Assembly: GCA_013822125.1 (NCBI GenBank)
Contig: PNJY01000008.1
Span: 1-48,186, forward strand
DNA from: Erythrobacter sp.
GTDB taxonomy: Bacteria > Pseudomonadota > Alphaproteobacteria > Sphingomonadales > Sphingomonadaceae
Length of the DNA: 48,186 nucleotides
Direction: 5' to 3'
Part shown: positions 4,007-47,271 of the stretch, one piece after another
Position numbering within the stretch: position 1 is the first letter of the stretch
Layout: each line of letters begins with the position of its first letter
The notes under the pieces: generated by a model
Database searches by the model: none
What the model saw: only the letters and a program-made list of their open reading frames with translations
What the model was told of the DNA's origin: nothing
Made by a program: the position numbers and the translations under genes

Positions 4007-4081
4007 GGGCGCGTAGCTCAGTGGTAGAGCACACCCTTCACACGGGTGGGGTCGCAGGTTCAATCCCTGCCGCGCCCACCA
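4007..4081 (+). tRNA. tRNA-Val (anticodon CAC)
   Basis: A complete 75-nt cloverleaf can be folded by eye. The acceptor arm GGGCGCG pairs perfectly with CGCGCCC. The D arm is GCTC..GAGC, the anticodon stem CACCC/GGGTG with loop TTCACAC (anticodon CAC, reading GTG), and the T arm is GCAGG TTCAATC CCTGC. Discriminator A4078 is followed by an encoded CCA (4079-4081). No integrase or duplicated 3' end is visible nearby, so there is no sign that it serves as an attachment site here. Confidence 0.96.
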
Positions 4082-38700: not shown

Positions 38701-40680
38701 TCAGCCGCAGATGCTTGCCTTCGATAACGCGATTGCGCTCCACAACTGGACCGCGTTCGATTCGGTTTCGTGGCCCGCTTCCTGCCCATAGGGCTGCGGC
38801 ACGATACGCCCATCATCCAGTCGCCATGACCACAGTTCCGAACCCCGAAACGACACGGTCCGCTCGATCGCCGCTGTGATCGCAGTTTCCGCCTGCAACA
38901 GCAGGTCACGCGTGCCTTGCGCAAGGTCGCCGCGCGCCAACTGGCAGCTGATCCCCGCCTTCAGCAATCCCTGCTGCCACGACCAGATCACGGTGCCATG
39001 ATAGCGCGTGTTGTCGAACGTCGCCGCACGCTCGGCACCGGCATAGGCCGGATTGGCGACCAGCATTCCGGCATCGGTCATCAGGCCCGATGGAAACGGC
39101 GCGATGACTTGCCCAAGCGCCGCCTGAATGGTCGCATCGTCGGGTTTGAGAAAGTACAGCAGGAAGCCGACATCCGAATGCATCACCTGCACCGGTCGCC
39201 CTGCAGCATCGAGCGCGAGGGCCATGAAGCGGACCTCTCTGGCAACTGGATGTGGCGCGGCAATGCCGGACGTTTGGGCAAATGCCGCCAGTTGCGCCTC
39301 GGCCTGATCTGCAGGCAACGACACGGCGAACTGCATCGGTGCTTCCTTCGCCCAGACTTTCGCCATCGCGGCCATGTCGCCAAGTTCGGTTCCCTGCGCC
39401 CCGTAATCGCGCAGCAGGCCGCTGCTCAGCAAACGGCTTCCGGCGTCGAGCGCCGCCGGAACCAGCGCCGCATTGATGCTGAACGAGTAACGGCCATCGC
39501 CGCCGAGGCCGTTCTGGCTGTCGCGCCAGTCGCCCACGGTCAGCCCATCGTGGAGGGAAATCAGTCGTTCGGCGCCGGGATTTGCCGCAAAGGGCCGTGC
39601 CCGCGCCGCGACAAATCGGAGATTGCGCAGAACAAGCTCGCCGAACGAAACACCCGACCGATCCTTGCGTGCAAGAAAGGCGGCTGCGCGCGCGCGGCCC
39701 TCGGGCGTTTCGAGCAGATAGCGGGCCAGCACCGGTGCCAGCATGAAATCGTCATCGACCATCTTGTAGTCGAGCACCGGATGCCGCACGTCGTGCCCCG
39801 GCCTGCCGATCAGTGCGAATTCGCCAATGTCTTCCTCGTGCGCGACTTCGCCGCCGGAATCGAGCCGTTCGAGCACCGAACCCAGCCCTGCCTCGATTGG
39901 CTCGGGCCTCAATTCCCCCATCATCAGCGCCAGCGTCATCAGCGTATCGCGCCCGAAATAGGTCTCGTACTGCCACGACCCGGCGAGCAGCTTCTCGCGG
40001 TAGGCAAGGAAGGCCACGGACCGTTGCAGCTGGTTCTCGCGGTCGGGGTGATTGAAGATCTGTTCCACGCTCAGCGGCGTCAACGGTTCCTCCCCTGTCA
40101 ATGCGGCGATCCTGAGCCGCAGCGGGCCCTTGTGCGATGTCAGCACAACCGCGCCATCGCGCATTTCGGCCTGCCCGTTCAGCACCGTCACCACCAGCGA
40201 ATAACCGGGGCCACCGTCAATCCGGCGCCGCTCCCAGGTGACCTTGCCCGCCGCGATGACCGGCATGGCCTCGACTTCGGCAGGAATGGGGTTGCCATAG
40301 CCATAGTCTCTGAGCACCCGGATGCTGCCTACCAGGGCGCGGTTCACGGTGAGCCGGGCTGCATCCGCCTCCAGCTCGGCCACGATCCCGCGGAGCCTAC
40401 CGCCACCGGTCTGTTGCCGCTGTGCCGCGCGCAACGGCGCGGTCAGCCGCCACACCGTAGCTTCTCTCAGCCACAGGCCCGCACCGCTATTGCCTGCAGG
40501 GAACGCGAACACCAGCCGGGCCGCGGGGCCTGAGCGCAGGACGGCGTGCGCCGCAACCGGGCCATCGCGAAAGAAATGGTTCTGGATACGCCCTTCGGTG
40601 ATCGCAAAGCTCAGGTCGGGCGCGGCGTCGGCCCGTGCGCCCAGCAGGAGCAGGCAGAAGATTGCGAGCCACCTCATCAT
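38701..40680 (-). CDS. secreted (alpha/alpha)6-barrel glycosidase-like protein
   Basis: A 659-residue protein with a signal peptide (RWLAIFCLLLLGARADA|A). An N-terminal beta-sandwich-like half is followed by a helical barrel: SWQYETYFGRDTLMTLALMMGELRPEPIEAGLGSVLERL, then VAHEEDIGEFA, YKMVDDDFMLAPVLARYLLE, GDWRDSQNGLGG and YHGTVIWSWQQGLL. The GRDT and D/W motifs resemble amylo-alpha-1,6-glucosidase and other six-hairpin glycosidases. The operon context (disaccharide phosphorylase, TonB receptor) suggests trimming of an alpha-glucan or glucoside in the periplasm. CAZy family not assigned. The start overlaps the MFS stop by 4 nt (ATGA). It is convergent with the GGDEF gene. Confidence 0.65.
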   Translation of the reverse strand: MMRWLAIFCLLLLGARADAAPDLSFAITEGRIQNHFFRDGPVAAHAVLRSGPAARLVFAFPAGNSGAGLWLREATVWRLTAPLRAAQRQQTGGGRLRGIVAELEADAARLTVNRALVGSIRVLRDYGYGNPIPAEVEAMPVIAAGKVTWERRRIDGGPGYSLVVTVLNGQAEMRDGAVVLTSHKGPLRLRIAALTGEEPLTPLSVEQIFNHPDRENQLQRSVAFLAYREKLLAGSWQYETYFGRDTLMTLALMMGELRPEPIEAGLGSVLERLDSGGEVAHEEDIGEFALIGRPGHDVRHPVLDYKMVDDDFMLAPVLARYLLETPEGRARAAAFLARKDRSGVSFGELVLRNLRFVAARARPFAANPGAERLISLHDGLTVGDWRDSQNGLGGDGRYSFSINAALVPAALDAGSRLLSSGLLRDYGAQGTELGDMAAMAKVWAKEAPMQFAVSLPADQAEAQLAAFAQTSGIAAPHPVAREVRFMALALDAAGRPVQVMHSDVGFLLYFLKPDDATIQAALGQVIAPFPSGLMTDAGMLVANPAYAGAERAATFDNTRYHGTVIWSWQQGLLKAGISCQLARGDLAQGTRDLLLQAETAITAAIERTVSFRGSELWSWRLDDGRIVPQPYGQEAGHETESNAVQLWSAIALSKASICG

Positions 40681-41894
40681 GCGCGCATCCGTGCGAAGAA
40701 CCCGAGCGAAACCAGCAGCAGCCCCATCGGCGCGATCGACAGGTAGAACGCGGTCTGCCCGTCGAATGCGGCGAACACCTGGCCCGTGATGAACGAACCG
40801 GTAGTGCCGCCGAGCGCGGAGAATACCACCAGCAGCCCGGTCATCGCGGCATGATCTGGCTTTGGCAGCGATGACAGCATGGCCGAATTGATCGCAGGAT
40901 AGATCGGAGCGAGGAACAGCCCAACGAGTGGCAGGATATAGGCAGCAAGCGGGGCAGAGAGCCACCCTATGTCCGCTGAAGGGGATATTCCGCGGGTCAA
41001 AGGCAGGCTGACCAGCACCAGCAGCGCCATTGCAACGATGCAGATATTGACGAGCGGATACCAGCCGATGCGTGTCAATATCGCTCCGGCACCCAACCGG
41101 CCAATTGCGATGGAAGCTGCGAAGATGCTCGTGGCCTGGATGCTCATCGCCTGGGGCAGATGCAGCACTTCGTTGTTGAACGTCGGCAGCCAGGTGCCGA
41201 TCGCCTGTTCAATCAGCACATAGAGGAATGCAGATAGGACGAAGACCAGCACCAGTGGCCTCGCCGCCAGCTTGAGCATTCCGGCGAAATCCTCGCGCGG
41301 GCGGCGATAGGCGGGGCGGGCCGCGCGCTCGTCAAGCCGGCTGAAGAACAGCAGTGCGCAAACCCCGAACGCGAGCGCGGCAAGCAACCAGTAAACATCG
41401 AGCCAGGCGAGGCTGGCGGGCGCTGCGGGATCGATGAAGGCGCCGAAGATCCAGTAGCCTGACAGCACCCCGACCATGAACAGCCCTTCGATCACGTTGG
41501 TCAGGCTGGCATGTTGCGCCGGCCCTTCGGTCACCAGCCCGATCGAGGAATAGACCGAAACCTTGATCAGGCCGAACGAGGCGCCCGTCACCGCGAACAG
41601 CAGCTTGGCCATGGCAAATGTCGGCACCAGCGGCATGATGAGGCAGGCGATGCCCACCATCGCCGCCCCGGTCATCATCGCCCGGCGATAGCCGAAGCGC
41701 GGCAGCAGCGAAGCCAGAAGGAACGACATCACCGCGATCGGCAGGTCCTTGAACGCCTCGAGGATCGAGGCACTGGCTTTGGTCTGCCCCATCGTCGCGA
41801 TAGATTGCAGAATGACCGTGCCGACACTGTTCAGCAGGATGCCGAACAGCATGTAAACCAGAACCAGCGCGACGATGATGCCGAGATTTCGCAT
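40677..41894 (-). CDS. MFS sugar transporter
   Basis: A 405-residue twelve-helix transporter of the major facilitator superfamily. The first half has the loop LLPRFGYRRAMMTGA between helices 2 and 3; a long basic loop (SRLDERAARPAYRRPRED) separates the halves. The overall look (IEGLFMVGVLSGYWIFGAFID, GLLVVFSALGGTTGSFITGQV) recalls FucP-like sugar symporters. Expected role is inner-membrane uptake of the di- or monosaccharide from the locus. ATG 41894 is chosen because AGGAAGG stands 6 nt before it. It lies after a terminator that follows the TonB receptor, and overlaps the glycosidase-like gene by 4 nt. Confidence 0.84.
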   Translation of the reverse strand: MRNLGIIVALVLVYMLFGILLNSVGTVILQSIATMGQTKASASILEAFKDLPIAVMSFLLASLLPRFGYRRAMMTGAAMVGIACLIMPLVPTFAMAKLLFAVTGASFGLIKVSVYSSIGLVTEGPAQHASLTNVIEGLFMVGVLSGYWIFGAFIDPAAPASLAWLDVYWLLAALAFGVCALLFFSRLDERAARPAYRRPREDFAGMLKLAARPLVLVFVLSAFLYVLIEQAIGTWLPTFNNEVLHLPQAMSIQATSIFAASIAIGRLGAGAILTRIGWYPLVNICIVAMALLVLVSLPLTRGISPSADIGWLSAPLAAYILPLVGLFLAPIYPAINSAMLSSLPKPDHAAMTGLLVVFSALGGTTGSFITGQVFAAFDGQTAFYLSIAPMGLLLVSLGFFARMRA

Positions 41895-41910
41895 GCCCAT
41901 CCTTCCTACA

Positions 41911-41999: not shown

Positions 42000-44261
42000 T
42001 TAGAACCGGAAACCGACCGAGAAGCGGAACGAACGGCCCAGGATCGGGCGACCGTTCGGCGCGGTTGCGCTGCGTGGGTCGCCTTCGGTCAGGCCATGCG
42101 AGTCGAACAGATTGTCGGCATGGATCTGGCCATAGAGTCCCGAAGGGGTGTTAACCCGCACACCGAGATCGACCTTCGTGTACGAACCCAGCTCCACCGT
42201 ATTTGCCAGGTTCTCGAACCTGTTTCCTACGATCTGCGCGGCGGCATACAGATTGGCGTTCCAATCGCCCACCTCGAAATCGACGCTCGGTGACACGCGA
42301 ACCTGGATTCTGGGCTGGCGATGGACCCTGTTCCCGACAATCGTCGGATCGGCGGTGTTTTCGGTAATCTTCGCATCCTGGAACGTCGCAATGGCTGCGA
42401 GATTGAACATCCCGAACGTCAGAGTGCTGTCGAGTTCAAGGCCATAGGCCCTGGTATCGAACGCCGTGGCGTCATTTGCCCCCAGGGTGCTCTGGAACCG
42501 CTCGTTGGTGTTGCGGAATCCGGTTGCATAGAGACGGATGTGGTCCGAGGTATATTTCAGTCCGGCTTCAAGCTGCTTGATGTCGAAGGTGCGGTCCACG
42601 CCATCGCGCAAGGTATCGAAGTTGGGGAAGGTTTCACCATCCGAGAAGCGCACAAAGGCACCGAAGGTGTCGCTGAACGCATAGTTCACCGCGGCAGTCC
42701 ACGAGATCTCGTTATTGGTATAATGGATATTCCTGTCCCTGGTCCCGTCCGGGAAACCCGGGCCGGTATCGACGACATAATTGATTTCCACCCATTCGTT
42801 ACGGACACCGGCATCGATCCGCAGCTTGTCGGTAACATCGAACGAATCGGCCAGATATACCGCGTTGACATTGGCATCGCCCACGCCCTGCAACCCGAAG
42901 GCAAAACCGGCGCCGCCACCGGCGGCTTCGATATCCTGCGGGGTTACATTGGCCAGTATGTCGCCGTTCTGCGTCAGCTGCACACCGACCGGGTTGCCGA
43001 GCGACCACCAGTCATCCGACGAGAACGAGGAACGGTAATAGCCGACCGTGACTTCGTTGTCGCCGAGATCGAAGGCAAGGCTGAGGTCGTTGGTCAGCGA
43101 TTCGAGATCCTTCTCGACCACCCAATGGCCATAAGTTTGTACGAAATCGGTGCTGGCAAGCGTGACCCCGCCCAGTGTCTGCACCGGATTTCCCGTCACC
43201 GCACTGACGGCCCCGGCAGTTACCGCTGCGCCCGACGGCACGAGCCCGTATGTATCGGCATCGCCTTTCAGATAGGCCAGGTTGTCACGCAGGGTGATAT
43301 TGTCCGAAACTTCGAATTCGACATTCAGGCCTGACAGATTACCCTTCCAGCCGCGACCGCGCCGGAAGTCGAAAATCTTGCTGTTGCCGTCGGCGTCGAT
43401 CTGAATTTCGCGCAGGCGGGTGGCATTGCCCAGCAACGAGAAGTTGCCAAGATCAAGTCCGGCATTGAGTGCGATCGGCAGGTACCACTGGCCCACATCG
43501 TCGGTCTGGCGCGTCCATGCGCTGATCTTGCCGCGATCGAACTTGTAGGTCAGGTTGCCCGACAACTGGAACCCGCGTTCCGAATTGAACTGCGCATCCC
43601 TGATGCCGGGTGAGGTGCTGGCATAACCTCCGACGGTGTAATAGAGGTCTTCCCCAAGCGCGCCCGACAGATAGAAGTCGACCTGCTGGAGGTCATAATC
43701 GGATGCGGTGTAGCGAATGCCTCCTTCGGTATCGTCCTGGCCTTCGCGCAGACGGAAGTTGAGCGTCACACCCGGCTCGCCCCGGGCAAACACCGAGCTG
43801 GGGCCACCGCGCAGCGCTTCGACCGAAGCGATCGTGTCGTCAACGCGGAAGATCGTGCTTTGCTCAAGGAACGACAGGGTCGGCGTGCCGAAGATCGGGG
43901 CACCGGCCACGGACAAGGTCACGAACGGGGCATCGCCGCCAGCGGGCAGACCGCGTACGTCGATATTGGCACCGCCCTTGCCGCCCGAGCTTTCCGCCCA
44001 GACCCCTGGAACCAGGCTGAAGATTTCAGCCGTGCTCTTGGGTGCGGCGATCGTCAGATCGTCTGCTGAAACCGACGTGATGGCGAAGCTCGCATCCTGC
44101 TTGCGCAGTCCGGCGCCGCCCGCGGTACCGGTAACGATGATTTCGCTGCCTTCGTCTGTCTCCGCTGCCGCGTCCTCGCCCTGCGCCCAGGCGGGCGCGG
44201 AAGCCGATACGGCTAGCGCCATGAACGACGAATACGACAAAATTCTGTGATAATTCCTCAT
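42000..44261 (-). CDS. TonB-dependent receptor of the sugar locus
   Basis: A 753-residue outer-membrane receptor. Signal peptide RNYHRILSYSSFMALAVSASAPAWA|Q, an acidic spacer, TonB box GSEIIVTGT, then the plug (AITSVSADDLTIAAPKSTAEIFSLVPGVWAE ... NIDVRGLPAGGDAPFVTLSVAGAPI ... VEALRGGPSSVFARGEPGVTLNF) and barrel, ending in RFSVGFRF with the terminal Phe. By context it imports an alpha-glucoside or malto-oligosaccharide, as in known proteobacterial maltose receptors. Its ATG overlaps the upstream phosphorylase stop (ATGA), with GGAG 9 nt upstream inside that gene. Regulation is presumably by the LacI protein. Confidence 0.9.
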   Translation of the reverse strand: MRNYHRILSYSSFMALAVSASAPAWAQGEDAAAETDEGSEIIVTGTAGGAGLRKQDASFAITSVSADDLTIAAPKSTAEIFSLVPGVWAESSGGKGGANIDVRGLPAGGDAPFVTLSVAGAPIFGTPTLSFLEQSTIFRVDDTIASVEALRGGPSSVFARGEPGVTLNFRLREGQDDTEGGIRYTASDYDLQQVDFYLSGALGEDLYYTVGGYASTSPGIRDAQFNSERGFQLSGNLTYKFDRGKISAWTRQTDDVGQWYLPIALNAGLDLGNFSLLGNATRLREIQIDADGNSKIFDFRRGRGWKGNLSGLNVEFEVSDNITLRDNLAYLKGDADTYGLVPSGAAVTAGAVSAVTGNPVQTLGGVTLASTDFVQTYGHWVVEKDLESLTNDLSLAFDLGDNEVTVGYYRSSFSSDDWWSLGNPVGVQLTQNGDILANVTPQDIEAAGGGAGFAFGLQGVGDANVNAVYLADSFDVTDKLRIDAGVRNEWVEINYVVDTGPGFPDGTRDRNIHYTNNEISWTAAVNYAFSDTFGAFVRFSDGETFPNFDTLRDGVDRTFDIKQLEAGLKYTSDHIRLYATGFRNTNERFQSTLGANDATAFDTRAYGLELDSTLTFGMFNLAAIATFQDAKITENTADPTIVGNRVHRQPRIQVRVSPSVDFEVGDWNANLYAAAQIVGNRFENLANTVELGSYTKVDLGVRVNTPSGLYGQIHADNLFDSHGLTEGDPRSATAPNGRPILGRSFRFSVGFRF

Positions 44262-47179
44262 GATACTTTCTCCTCGTCTTTGGTCTCTTGCATACTGTTG
44301 GCTGGTTGTGCTGCCACGTCGAACAAATCGGCGAGCCGGATGTCTCCGGTCTCGCGGAAATAGAGGTCGGCTCCGGGCAGCACGCCTGGATTGCCAACCC
44401 CCACCGCAAGCATGCCTGCCGCGCGGATTGCTGTGATACCGGCCGCCGAATCCTCGATGCCGACGCACCGATCCGGTGCCACGCCGAGCGCAAGCGCGTT
44501 TTCAATGAAGATGTCGGGATGCGGCTTTCCGTTGGCGATTTTCGCGGCATCGGCCACGAAATCGAAACAGCTTTCGATGCCCAGCCTGCGGATCAGATCG
44601 CCGGCGTTGCGGCTGGCCGAAGCGAGCCCGATCTTGAGGCGGGCATTGCGACAGTCGGCGAGCAGGCGTTCGACGCCGGGAAACAGGTCGCCGGGGCCGA
44701 AACCCGCCAGCGCCTCACGATAGTACCCGTTCTTGCGGACCAGCATCGCCTCGAACTTCGGGACGGGGACTTCGATCCCGGCGGCCTCGATAATGCGGGC
44801 GAGCGATTGCGACCGATCAACCCCCTTGAGCCCTTCGTTGACCGATCGGTCGAACGCAATCCCCTCCTCGTCGCACAGTCGCTTCCAGGCGAGGTAATGT
44901 GCCTCGGCAGTATCGGTGATGACCCCGTCGAGGTCGAAGATGACCGCATCGAAGGCGGGCGGCTGCATCAGCACCGGTCCGCGCGAAAGATCGACCTCGC
45001 GCCCGCGGTCGAAGAATATCGGCACAGGCCCGTCGATCAGCGAATAGCGAGCGTCGCCGCCCTTGACCGCAACCTCGACCGTGGCGCCCTGCCAGTGGAA
45101 GCGGAATGAAAATGACTTCCACGGATCGGGGCAGGTCGGGGCGAGCGAGAGCACTCCATCCGCTATCGTCAGCCCGCCCCAGCCTTGCGCCAATGCCAGC
45201 CAGCTGCCCGCCATCGCGGCCAGATGGCAGCCATGCCAGGTGTTGGCGTGCAGATCGTGAAGATCGACAAATGCTGTTTGATGCAGATAGTCGAGCGCGT
45301 CGGCGGTTTCCGCGCAGCGGGCCGCGGCGATGGCAAACGCGGTTGCCGACAGCGTCGAATCGTGCGTCGTCAGCGGCTCGTAATAGGCAAGGTCGCGGCG
45401 AATTTGCGCCTGGCTAGCGTGCGTTGCGCCGATCGCATGCGCCTGCACCACATCGCCCTGCTTGCACAGACGGTGACGAAACAGGACCAGCGGATGGTAT
45501 TTGACCAGCAGCGGTGCGCCGGACGCATCACGGGCGCCTTGCGGAAACGGCGGCTTGTCCATGAAGCCGTCATCCTGCGGGTGCACCCCGGTTACCGGAT
45601 CGACCGGCAGCCACATGTGCATCGCTGCGCGTTGCCAGCTGGTGATTTCGTCGGCCGCGACTGCGCCAAAGTCACGCGCGACACTGGCTGCAAACAGCAG
45701 GTGGCGCCGCGCCATCGCGTTGGTGTAGAAATCGTTGTCGACCAGCGCGCTGTATTCGTCAGGGCCGGTTACACCATGAATCAGGAAAGCCCCGCCCCGG
45801 CGCTCGCAGAAATGCCCAGTGTCCATCCACAGTCTGGCCGTTTCAAACAGCATCTCGGCCGCGCCGTGCTCCAGGATCGATCGGTCGCCGGTGGCGGCAA
45901 CGTAGATTTCCACCGCATAGGCGATGGCGGCGTTGACGTGATATTGCGCCGAGCCGGTGGGGTAGTGGGTCGAACATTCGCGCCCGCCGATGGTACGCCA
46001 CGGGTAAAGCGCGCCCGCCGCATGGCCGATCGCCCGTGCGTGTTCGCGCGCATCGGCAAGGCGCGATACGCGGTATTCGATCAGGTGGCGGGCCAGATCT
46101 GGCGCTGTCAGCGCCAATACCGGCAGGACGAAGGCTTCGGTGTCCCAGAAGTAGTGCCCTTCGTACCCTTCGCCGGTCAGGCCCTTGGCAGCGACGCCTT
46201 GACCCCCACTTCTGCTCGCCGACTGGAAAATGTGAAACAGGTTGAAGCGCACGGCCAATTGCAGGGCCGGATCGGATTCGATCCCCATGGCCGCGGTCTT
46301 CCAGAAACCTTCGAGCGCCAGGCGCGATTGTTCCAGCAAGCGATCGAACCCGGCGGCTTCGGCAGCTTCGACCTGGGCGAGCGCGGCGGCTTCGATGGCG
46401 GTTCCGCCGCCCTCGGCAGTCGAAGCAGCGACAAACCGGTCGAACGTCAGCGCTTCACCGGTGGCCAGCCTGGCCGAAACCGATAGATTGTCCTTACTAC
46501 CGGCGATCCACTGTGCGATCGTAACCTTTGGCTTGCCGCCGGTTGCCGGCGCAAAGCACCATTCGTGACCCTGAATGGTCGAGCGGGCCGAAACCTGCGC
46601 CAGATGCGCGCGCGCGCTGATCCGGGGGTCATCGGCATCGAAGGCATCTGCACCCGGATCGCAAAGCGCGACGGGGCAAAGGACCCGTATACTTGCGGCG
46701 AAATTGACCGGCCTGACCGCGTAGCGCGAGGCGCAAACCGCACCTGCGCCGAAGGGCACCATGCGACGCACATCGATCTCCAGCTCGCGGCCATCGGGCA
46801 GCAACCACAGCGTCGAACGCGCCAGGACTCCGGTCGCCAGGTCGAGGGTCCTTCGAAATTCCAGCATTTCGGCGACTTCGAAGTCGATCGCGGTCCCGTC
46901 GATTTCGACCTGGATCATCGTCAGGCCCGGTCCGGTCAGCCGCGAATCGGTGCCATCGGCGAAACCGGGGAAACTCTCGTGGTAACGGACCGGCCGCCGG
47001 AGATAGGCCGATGGAAGGAATGAGGCATGCATATGGAGCAGCTCGTCAATTCCTCCGCGCACCCCGATTGCCCCGTTCGCCAGGGCGAACAGCGCGCCGT
47101 CACGCGCAAGCGTAGCGGGATCGAACGACGACTGCTCGATCGACCATGCGTCAACGCTTTGGGGTGGTGAAATCGTCAA
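44258..47179 (-). CDS. GH65 disaccharide phosphorylase fused to beta-phosphoglucomutase
   Basis: A 973-residue two-domain cytosolic enzyme. Residues ~1-738 are a glycoside hydrolase family 65 phosphorylase: FALANGAIGVRGG, GYEGHYFWDTEAF (338-350), general acid Glu475 in GVTGPDEYS, KQGDVVQAH, and THDSTLSATAFAIAA. Residues ~743-955 are a HAD-type beta-phosphoglucomutase: Asp749 and Asp751 in IFDLDGVITDTAEAHYLAWKRL, LASASRN, NGKPHPDIF, GIEDSAAGITAIRAAGM. Together they turn an alpha-glucosyl disaccharide plus phosphate into glucose and beta-glucose-1-phosphate, then glucose-6-phosphate. The linkage (maltose, trehalose, kojibiose, nigerose) is undetermined. TTG 47179 is preferred because GGAGGAG precedes it; GTG 47200 is in frame. 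Confidence 0.9.
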   Translation of the reverse strand: MTISPPQSVDAWSIEQSSFDPATLARDGALFALANGAIGVRGGIDELLHMHASFLPSAYLRRPVRYHESFPGFADGTDSRLTGPGLTMIQVEIDGTAIDFEVAEMLEFRRTLDLATGVLARSTLWLLPDGRELEIDVRRMVPFGAGAVCASRYAVRPVNFAASIRVLCPVALCDPGADAFDADDPRISARAHLAQVSARSTIQGHEWCFAPATGGKPKVTIAQWIAGSKDNLSVSARLATGEALTFDRFVAASTAEGGGTAIEAAALAQVEAAEAAGFDRLLEQSRLALEGFWKTAAMGIESDPALQLAVRFNLFHIFQSASRSGGQGVAAKGLTGEGYEGHYFWDTEAFVLPVLALTAPDLARHLIEYRVSRLADAREHARAIGHAAGALYPWRTIGGRECSTHYPTGSAQYHVNAAIAYAVEIYVAATGDRSILEHGAAEMLFETARLWMDTGHFCERRGGAFLIHGVTGPDEYSALVDNDFYTNAMARRHLLFAASVARDFGAVAADEITSWQRAAMHMWLPVDPVTGVHPQDDGFMDKPPFPQGARDASGAPLLVKYHPLVLFRHRLCKQGDVVQAHAIGATHASQAQIRRDLAYYEPLTTHDSTLSATAFAIAAARCAETADALDYLHQTAFVDLHDLHANTWHGCHLAAMAGSWLALAQGWGGLTIADGVLSLAPTCPDPWKSFSFRFHWQGATVEVAVKGGDARYSLIDGPVPIFFDRGREVDLSRGPVLMQPPAFDAVIFDLDGVITDTAEAHYLAWKRLCDEEGIAFDRSVNEGLKGVDRSQSLARIIEAAGIEVPVPKFEAMLVRKNGYYREALAGFGPGDLFPGVERLLADCRNARLKIGLASASRNAGDLIRRLGIESCFDFVADAAKIANGKPHPDIFIENALALGVAPDRCVGIEDSAAGITAIRAAGMLAVGVGNPGVLPGADLYFRETGDIRLADLFDVAAQPANSMQETKDEEKVS

Positions 47180-47243
47180 ACCCTCTCCTCCCGCAGGCAC
47201 CTGTGATCCGGTGCCCTTCGGCAGGATAGAAAATCCGGCAAAA

Positions 47244-47271
47244 TGTTATCGATGTCAAGGTATCGATGTCA
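47244..47271. promoter_or_regulatory. two abutting LacI-type operator-like sites over a promoter
   Basis: TGTTATCGATGTCA (47244-47257) fits the symmetrical pattern TG-N2-ATCGAT-N2-CA. It is followed at once by AGGTATCGATGTCA (47258-47271), which differs in one outer position. On the minus strand a perfect TTGACA (47253-47258) and a GATAAC lie inside them, so bound repressor would block transcription of the phosphorylase-receptor genes. LacI binding is inferred from the adjacent regulator gene. Confidence 0.6.

Follow-up and report, generated by a model that had tools for sequence, protein, structure and literature searches.

The gene described here resembles two known groups of enzymes, the inverting GH65 phosphorylases (trehalose phosphorylase, EC 2.4.1.64, with T. 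brockii TP and Thermobispora TbGP; maltose phosphorylase 1H54; kojibiose phosphorylase 3WIQ) and the free beta-phosphoglucomutase (bPGM) PgmB of L. lactis. According to PMC8626586, GH65 phosphorylases have a phosphate site of one Lys, one His and two Ser that a GH65 hydrolase described in the same paper does not conserve. According to De Beul et al. (PMC8537180), GH65 specificity is tied to six positions (CsKP 64, 392, 394, 402, 416 and 585), at which the tested Thermobispora trehalose enzyme reads TRIGPP, and SAY is given as the loop-3 motif of T. brockii trehalose phosphorylase. Here we analysed a 48,186-nucleotide stretch of DNA from Erythrobacter sp. (contig PNJY01000008.1; hereafter the window), which is the complete contig C8 of a 2.97 Mb draft genome (311 contigs, 4.77% contamination). 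It carries a gene that joins a GH65 phosphorylase to a bPGM in one frame, GH65 first. Leaving aside which sugar it uses, the product is very probably a bifunctional cytoplasmic enzyme.

Two enzymes in one frame

The minus-strand frame of the fusion gene runs to a stop at 44258 without an internal stop. Its longest possible start is GTG 47200, giving 980 residues; we preferred TTG 47179 because the ribosome-binding site GGGAGGAG lies just upstream and because both GGGAGGAG and the TTG are kept in the ortholog L100. Residues are numbered here from GTG 47200; subtracting seven gives the numbering of an earlier note on this DNA, which counted from the TTG. All three GH65 domains (N-terminal, catalytic and C-terminal; Table 1) exceed the Pfam gathering score. 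TIGR01990 identifies the C-terminal part as bPGM with 225 bits (cut-off 189.4; E-value 7.3e-67), and the Pfam HAD match covers residues 751-929. The E-values of the GH65 catalytic domain and of the bPGM are far outside chance. Since the HAD domain lies C-terminal to GH65, the Pfam architecture differs from that of phosphoglucomutase (PGM)-first GH65 fusions.

We inspected the active sites in an alignment of 28 fused relatives, hand-chosen among the fused loci. The GH65 general acid E482 (GPDEY motif; codon 45757-45755) and the phosphate-site residues K580, S615 and H659 are invariant (28/28). Equally invariant are D756, D758, T764, H768, R796, K823, S861, K892, E916 and D917 of the bPGM half, which match in order D8, D10, T16, H20, R49, K76, S114, K145, E169 and D170, the catalytic residues of PgmB. 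The earlier note had read, without naming the strand, one polypeptide with GH65 first and with Glu475, Asp749 and Asp751 intact; the single frame, the Pfam domains and TIGR01990 bear this out, and the three residues are E482, D756 and D758 of our numbering. One position of the phosphate site counts against the bifunctional reading: the second Ser is replaced by Thr (T616), a conservative change, with Thr in 21 and Ser in 7 of the 28 proteins.

The AlphaFold2 model of the fusion (mean predicted local distance difference test score, pLDDT, 83.5; predicted TM-score, pTM, 0.84) consists of two well-folded domains, with a linker region modelled at a pLDDT of about 90. In Foldseek searches, the GH65 part matched maltose phosphorylase 1H54 (TM 0.85 by target) and kojibiose phosphorylase, and the HAD part matched L. 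lactis PgmB (TM 0.86-0.95 by target, about 45% identity); the root-mean-square deviation (rmsd) over the listed chains was 1.2-3.6. The GH65 half thus has the catalytic Glu, the Lys/His/Ser phosphate site and the fold in common with GH65 phosphorylases, from which it differs in the Thr named above, in two substrate-site features discussed below and in its C-terminal bPGM. The bPGM half keeps the catalytic residues of PgmB, but is fused behind GH65 whereas PgmB is free.

Distribution and ancestry of the GH65-first order

A scan of 84,980 species genomes yielded at least 583 relatives among the stretches it covered, of which the best 80 were retained. Among these, 77 of the 79 classifiable loci are single-frame GH65-first fusions, a set biased towards fusions because the ranking rewards a single long match. 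The pair is split in L152 (Oxalobacteraceae) and L154 (Janthinobacterium); L175 was left unclassified by the motif script and is fused by hidden Markov model. The best 80 include Proteobacteria (Sphingopyxis, Novosphingobium, Pseudoxanthomonas, Dyella, Rhodanobacter, Lysobacter, Niveispirillum and Pleomorphomonas) as well as Paenibacillus, Vulcanibacillus, Chloroflexi bins and a Spirochaetales bin. The whole fusion protein also served as query in taxon samples, which overlap. The family sample (199 genomes) gave a match of any kind in 13 genomes at E ≤ 1e-20, the order sample (396) in 41, the class sample (337) in 24 and the phylum sample (349) in 55 at E ≤ 1e-15; the window's own genome and genomes matched through bPGM alone are counted in these totals. 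Single-frame GH65-first fusions, own included, numbered 6/199, 12/396, 2/337 and 3/349 respectively, and 3 of 251 genomes sampled around a Chloroflexi bin contained one. The GH65-first fusion is a minority trait, yet widely spread. The sole match among the members of the window's genus listed in the order sample (G349) is not a GH65-first fusion, and the gene was either gained in the window's genome or lost in its kin.

We classified 172 loci, a biased set in which several genomes apparently occur twice (e.g. L021 and L104): 100 are fused GH65-first, 27 adjacent GH65-first, 23 adjacent PGM-first with a divergent HAD, 20 GH65 without a recognized partner, one fused PGM-first and one other. The window's protein is 86% identical to its nearest relative and 37-57% identical to the other fused or adjacent ones. 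At L028-L031 and L075 the two genes share one frame and are separated by one stop (two in L029); we rejected stop-codon readthrough, as the downstream part has its own Met after the stop, and counted these as adjacent genes. The stop reported at L007 lies at the protein's end, and this locus was counted as fused. In the one-contig genome G007 (86% completeness), the GH65-bPGM gene at L009, L015 and L018 is broken into several frames, by decay or sequencing errors.

Two trees were built, both from the GH65 domain alone. All 42 fused GH65-first rows of the 103-row tree fall into one clade (SH-aLRT 99) along with 20 of the 27 adjacent ones, 62 rows in total. PGM-first pairs from actinobacteria and Chloroflexota lie apart from it, as do the remaining seven adjacent GH65-first rows, so GH65-first adjacency is not unique to the clade. 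In a more careful tree of 48 chosen rows, with seven of them as outgroup, the clade recurred (99/99) and held 27 fused and 14 adjacent rows. GH65-bPGM fusions or pairs of Sphingopyxis, Pseudoxanthomonas, Dyella, Rhodanobacter, Niveispirillum, Paenibacillus and Chloroflexota, a number of them from metagenome bins, share the order and the clade with the window. The window's protein falls, together with L100 and L019, in a sphingomonad clade of eight members, all of them fused (100/100). Given this well-supported position, the fusion was inherited and is not an event of this genome. Its most likely origin is the joining of two neighbouring genes, an old GH65-bPGM pair, in a clade distinct from the actinobacterial PGM-first pairs, with fusion rather than fission as the presumed basal direction. 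In the careful tree the fused state takes four changes within the clade and five against all rows, three of them forced by the starred branches. Either fusion and fission both, or repeated fusion, would therefore have occurred, though not recently in this genome; gain and loss are indistinguishable in these trees.

The reverse order was found in other settings. Three of the four actinobacterial plasmid-borne regions read (Streptomyces, Rhodococcus and Pseudarthrobacter) have PGM-first separate genes with a divergent HAD type, and the fourth has GH65 alone. None of the four holds a HAD-first fusion, within a PLSDB gene table that is incomplete and a sample confined to plasmids, chromosomal actinobacteria lying outside it. 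A true PGM-first fusion, with a kojibiose fingerprint, is present at L217, from genomes sampled as Chloroflexota, and G1319 is a candidate second one, judged from a shared 981-residue frame only. The actinobacterial pairs and L217 would be expected to catalyse the same two reactions as the window's fusion, but their order is reversed, they belong to other GH65 clades, and the actinobacterial HAD is divergent. Two further arrangements were seen: a third architecture, in which a different HAD type bearing an FDWDGTA motif precedes GH65 in one protein (L219, L220, L222, L224 and L227; five of seven such loci read from the Chloroflexi-bin sample), and GH65 genes with the DQGQDE fingerprint of trehalose-6-phosphate phosphorylase beside a divergent HAD gene (9 of the 23 adjacent PGM-first loci, including L012).

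The earlier note had set the GH65-first order against HAD-first fusions in actinobacteria; three of the four actinobacterial plasmid loci are indeed HAD-first and of another clade, but as separate genes, and the GH65-first order is widespread. The note's suggestion of an independent event does not hold for this genome, in which the fusion is inherited, and the genome scan found the order to be the usual one among the best 80 loci.

Substrate, channelling and intactness

At the six specificity positions the window reads S-R-I-T-(P)-H. R402 (CsKP 392) and I404 (CsKP 394) agree with the trehalose-phosphorylase fingerprint, and P414 was assigned to CsKP 416 by hand where the aligner left a gap; R-I-(P) is of the trehalose type. 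The 100 fused proteins mostly read TRIA-H (53) or TRIS-H (27), their P standing one column away from 416, and TRIG-P occurs in some actinobacterial-type PGM-first proteins. The SAY loop motif, present in 44 of the 100 fused proteins, also favours trehalose. As controls, the kojibiose (EEAP) and trehalose-6-phosphate (DQGQDE) fingerprints were recovered outside the fused GH65-first set and in 0/100 proteins within it. For Shewanella, a table in PMC2996990 groups treR, treT, treP and an outer-membrane protein as a predicted trehalose system, comparable in gene content whatever the glycoside family of treP. On these residues, alpha,alpha-trehalose is our best guess for the substrate, with about an even chance of being correct.

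Several observations count against trehalose. Position T411 (CsKP 402) is G and H569 (CsKP 585) is P in the tested enzyme, and the residue at CsKP 64 is alignment-dependent, being S in one alignment and E in another. The loop reads STH, not SAY; its last residue across the 100 fused proteins is H (47), Y (52) or F (one). By sequence, the nearest solved relative is a maltose phosphorylase, and 0 of the 59 matched PDB sequences is named trehalose phosphorylase. Finally, 31 of the best 80 loci encode a kojibiose-hydrolase-like GH65, and in the three that were aligned W-E occupies the kojibiose-type positions; such neighbours hint at an alpha-1,2-glucoside instead. The same bifunctional enzyme might accordingly act on a non-trehalose alpha-glucoside (kojibiose, nigerose or another), in which case the S-x-H loop would be the sign of a GH65 specificity of its own. 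We take this seriously, at somewhat less than an even chance: besides the loop, H569 and the cluster partners, it is favoured by the window's secreted partner, whose best fold match is an amylo-alpha-1,6-glucosidase, but it has to contend with the trehalose-phosphorylase residues R402, I404 and P414, with the absence of both control fingerprints from the fused set, and with the occurrence of SAY-type (Paenibacillus, L156) and S-x-H-type proteins in one clade. A bolder version, in which the sphingomonad and allied S-x-H proteins would represent an undescribed GH65 specificity, the secreted protein an undescribed glycosidase family and the operon a system for an unassigned alpha-glucoside, seems doubtful to us.

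Whatever the sugar, the fusion could be thought to channel beta-glucose-1-phosphate between its active sites. Retention of the fusion across several phyla and the confidently modelled linker would suit this idea, but relatives encoded by separate genes sit in the same clade (27 adjacent versus 100 fused loci, in the biased set). Catalysis by bPGM moreover passes through a bisphosphate intermediate that has to re-orient. We consider channelling improbable; a fixed enzyme ratio and the drain of beta-glucose-1-phosphate could alone favour the fusion.

L100 (Sphingomonadales bacterium BRH_c42, a metagenome bin), an independent assembly, encodes a single-frame fusion with 86% identity over the full length. 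Between the window and L100, the ratio of nonsynonymous to synonymous substitution rates (dN/dS; Nei-Gojobori script) is 0.16 over GH65 and 0.11 over PGM, that is, purifying selection acts on both domains. For the 22-codon linker the ratio is 0.54 and for the 30-codon tail 1.4, few codons each; this loosely constrained C-terminus (dN > dS) is a point against the bifunctional reading. The start of the downstream TonB receptor gene (ATG 44261-44259) overlaps the fusion's stop (44260-44258) as ATGA. That the fusion is an artefact, whether through a frameshift or a join of two genes in the assembly (both named by the earlier note as grounds for refutation) or through decay of the gene, as the draft state and contamination of the genome and a window spanning an entire contig might allow, is extremely unlikely given the ATGA overlap and the numerous fused relatives, and we rejected frameshift and assembly join because L100 is fused likewise with selection on both domains. 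The fusion is real and intact, in all likelihood functional, and ordinary in kind.

Operon, predicted operator and proposed function

On the minus strand, the fusion gene follows a LacI-family regulator and precedes genes for a TonB-dependent receptor, a major facilitator superfamily (MFS) permease and a predicted secreted protein (Table 1). Counted anywhere in the fetched stretch and on either strand, with some loci shortened by contig ends, homologs occur at 72 (LacI), 63 (TonB receptor), 60 (MFS) and 4 (secreted protein) of the best 80 loci. Of the LacI homologs, 63 are at least 43% identical, and nine, at 23-32%, are possibly other LacI members.

In the LacI family, the majority of binding motifs are reported to be even palindromes centred on CG (PMC4052901). 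Upstream of the fusion gene we predict a tandem operator of two CG-centred sites with a 14-bp period. This tandem arrangement is present within 300 bp upstream at 60 of the 77 loci with enough sequence, a count that is descriptive only because the scoring consensus was derived after viewing the same loci. Shuffling gave 14 chance tandems in 40 whole shuffled loci (one strand, same threshold), corresponding to about 0.5 expected in 77 upstream stretches. The 17 loci lacking the tandem are the eight non-proteobacterial ones tested, L158, L164, L166, L170 and L179 (Pleomorphomonas and the like), L152, L154, L113 (Niveispirillum) and L137. The pattern TGNYATCGATANC is confined, within the genome, to the two operator places, which fits a local regulator; the reversed-pattern control occurs nowhere. 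Most proteobacterial fused or adjacent relatives have neighbours and an operator like the window's, with no essential difference.

The 659-residue secreted protein, whose signal peptide was judged by eye and whose start overlaps the MFS stop by coordinates, has no match in Pfam, NCBIfam, PDB sequences or PADLOC, and three relatives have none in Pfam or NCBIfam. Its model (pLDDT 76.7, pTM 0.81) aligned best in VIA-align with amylo-alpha-1,6-glucosidase 7vma (Z 25.4, rmsd 4.9, 15% identity, 483 aligned); the next matches were further (alpha/alpha)6 enzymes. Counting the window's own genome, 12 of the 196 genomes sampled from the order encode the protein, which is a candidate for an undescribed glycosidase family. 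The second GH65 gene at 31 of the 80 loci, kojibiose-hydrolase-like and probably exported, lies near the fusion operon in Xanthomonadales-type clusters; the three scanned fell below the NCBIfam cut-off of 800 bits, so that their identity as kojibiose hydrolases is not proven. The sole RNA gene that ARAGORN and Rfam (at gathering scores) detected in the window is a tRNA-Val (CAC) at 4007-4081.

Table 1. Features of the fusion operon in the window, and kojibiose-hydrolase-like genes at three related loci.
Feature	Coordinates	Strand	Basis or remark
LacI-family regulator, 5' end (DNA-binding part) lost at contig end	47310..48185	-	Pfam; homolog search
Tandem operator, two CG-centred sites, 14-bp period	47244..47271	-	Predicted LacI-type binding site, upstream of fusion
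Ribosome-binding site GGGAGGAG of fusion gene	47185..47192	-	Read in sequence; identical in ortholog L100
GH65 phosphorylase/bPGM fusion gene	44258..47179	-	973 aa from TTG 47179
GH65 N-terminal domain, aa 23-261	46418..47134	-	Pfam PF03636, 94 bits
GH65 catalytic (alpha/alpha)6 domain, aa 318-667	45200..46249	-	Pfam PF03632, 350.9 bits, E-value 1.1e-104
GH65 C-terminal domain, aa 679-728	45017..45166	-	Pfam PF03633, 44.8 bits
bPGM (HAD) domain, aa 751-936	44393..44950	-	TIGR01990
TonB-dependent receptor, ATG overlaps fusion stop	42000..44261	-	Pfam; homolog search
MFS permease	40677..41900	-	Pfam; homolog search
Predicted secreted putative glycosidase, 659 aa	38701..40680	-	(alpha/alpha)6-barrel-like model
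Kojibiose-hydrolase-like GH65 gene	L119:15013-17256
Kojibiose-hydrolase-like GH65 gene	L125:13688-15970
Kojibiose-hydrolase-like GH65 gene	L146:8255-10513

We propose that the fusion gene is the first of an operon behind the LacI regulator, with the receptor, permease and secreted glycosidase downstream. An alpha-glucoside would be taken up via the TonB receptor and the MFS permease; the GH65 half would convert it with phosphate to glucose and beta-glucose-1-phosphate, and the bPGM half would move the phosphate to position 6 to yield glucose-6-phosphate. At the tandem operator, the LacI protein probably represses the operon until the sugar is present, and the conservation of this operator opens the regulation to testing. 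As the GH65-first architecture is common, its presence alone is no mark of unusualness. Literature searches aimed at the fusion turned up no description of it, a negative confined to those searches. If the S-x-H proteins did have an undescribed specificity, the fused bPGM may serve to pull an unfavourable phosphorolysis forward. The clade offers a clean comparison of fused and split versions of one enzyme pair, and the fusion is a candidate single-chain catalyst leading from an alpha-glucoside to glucose-6-phosphate.

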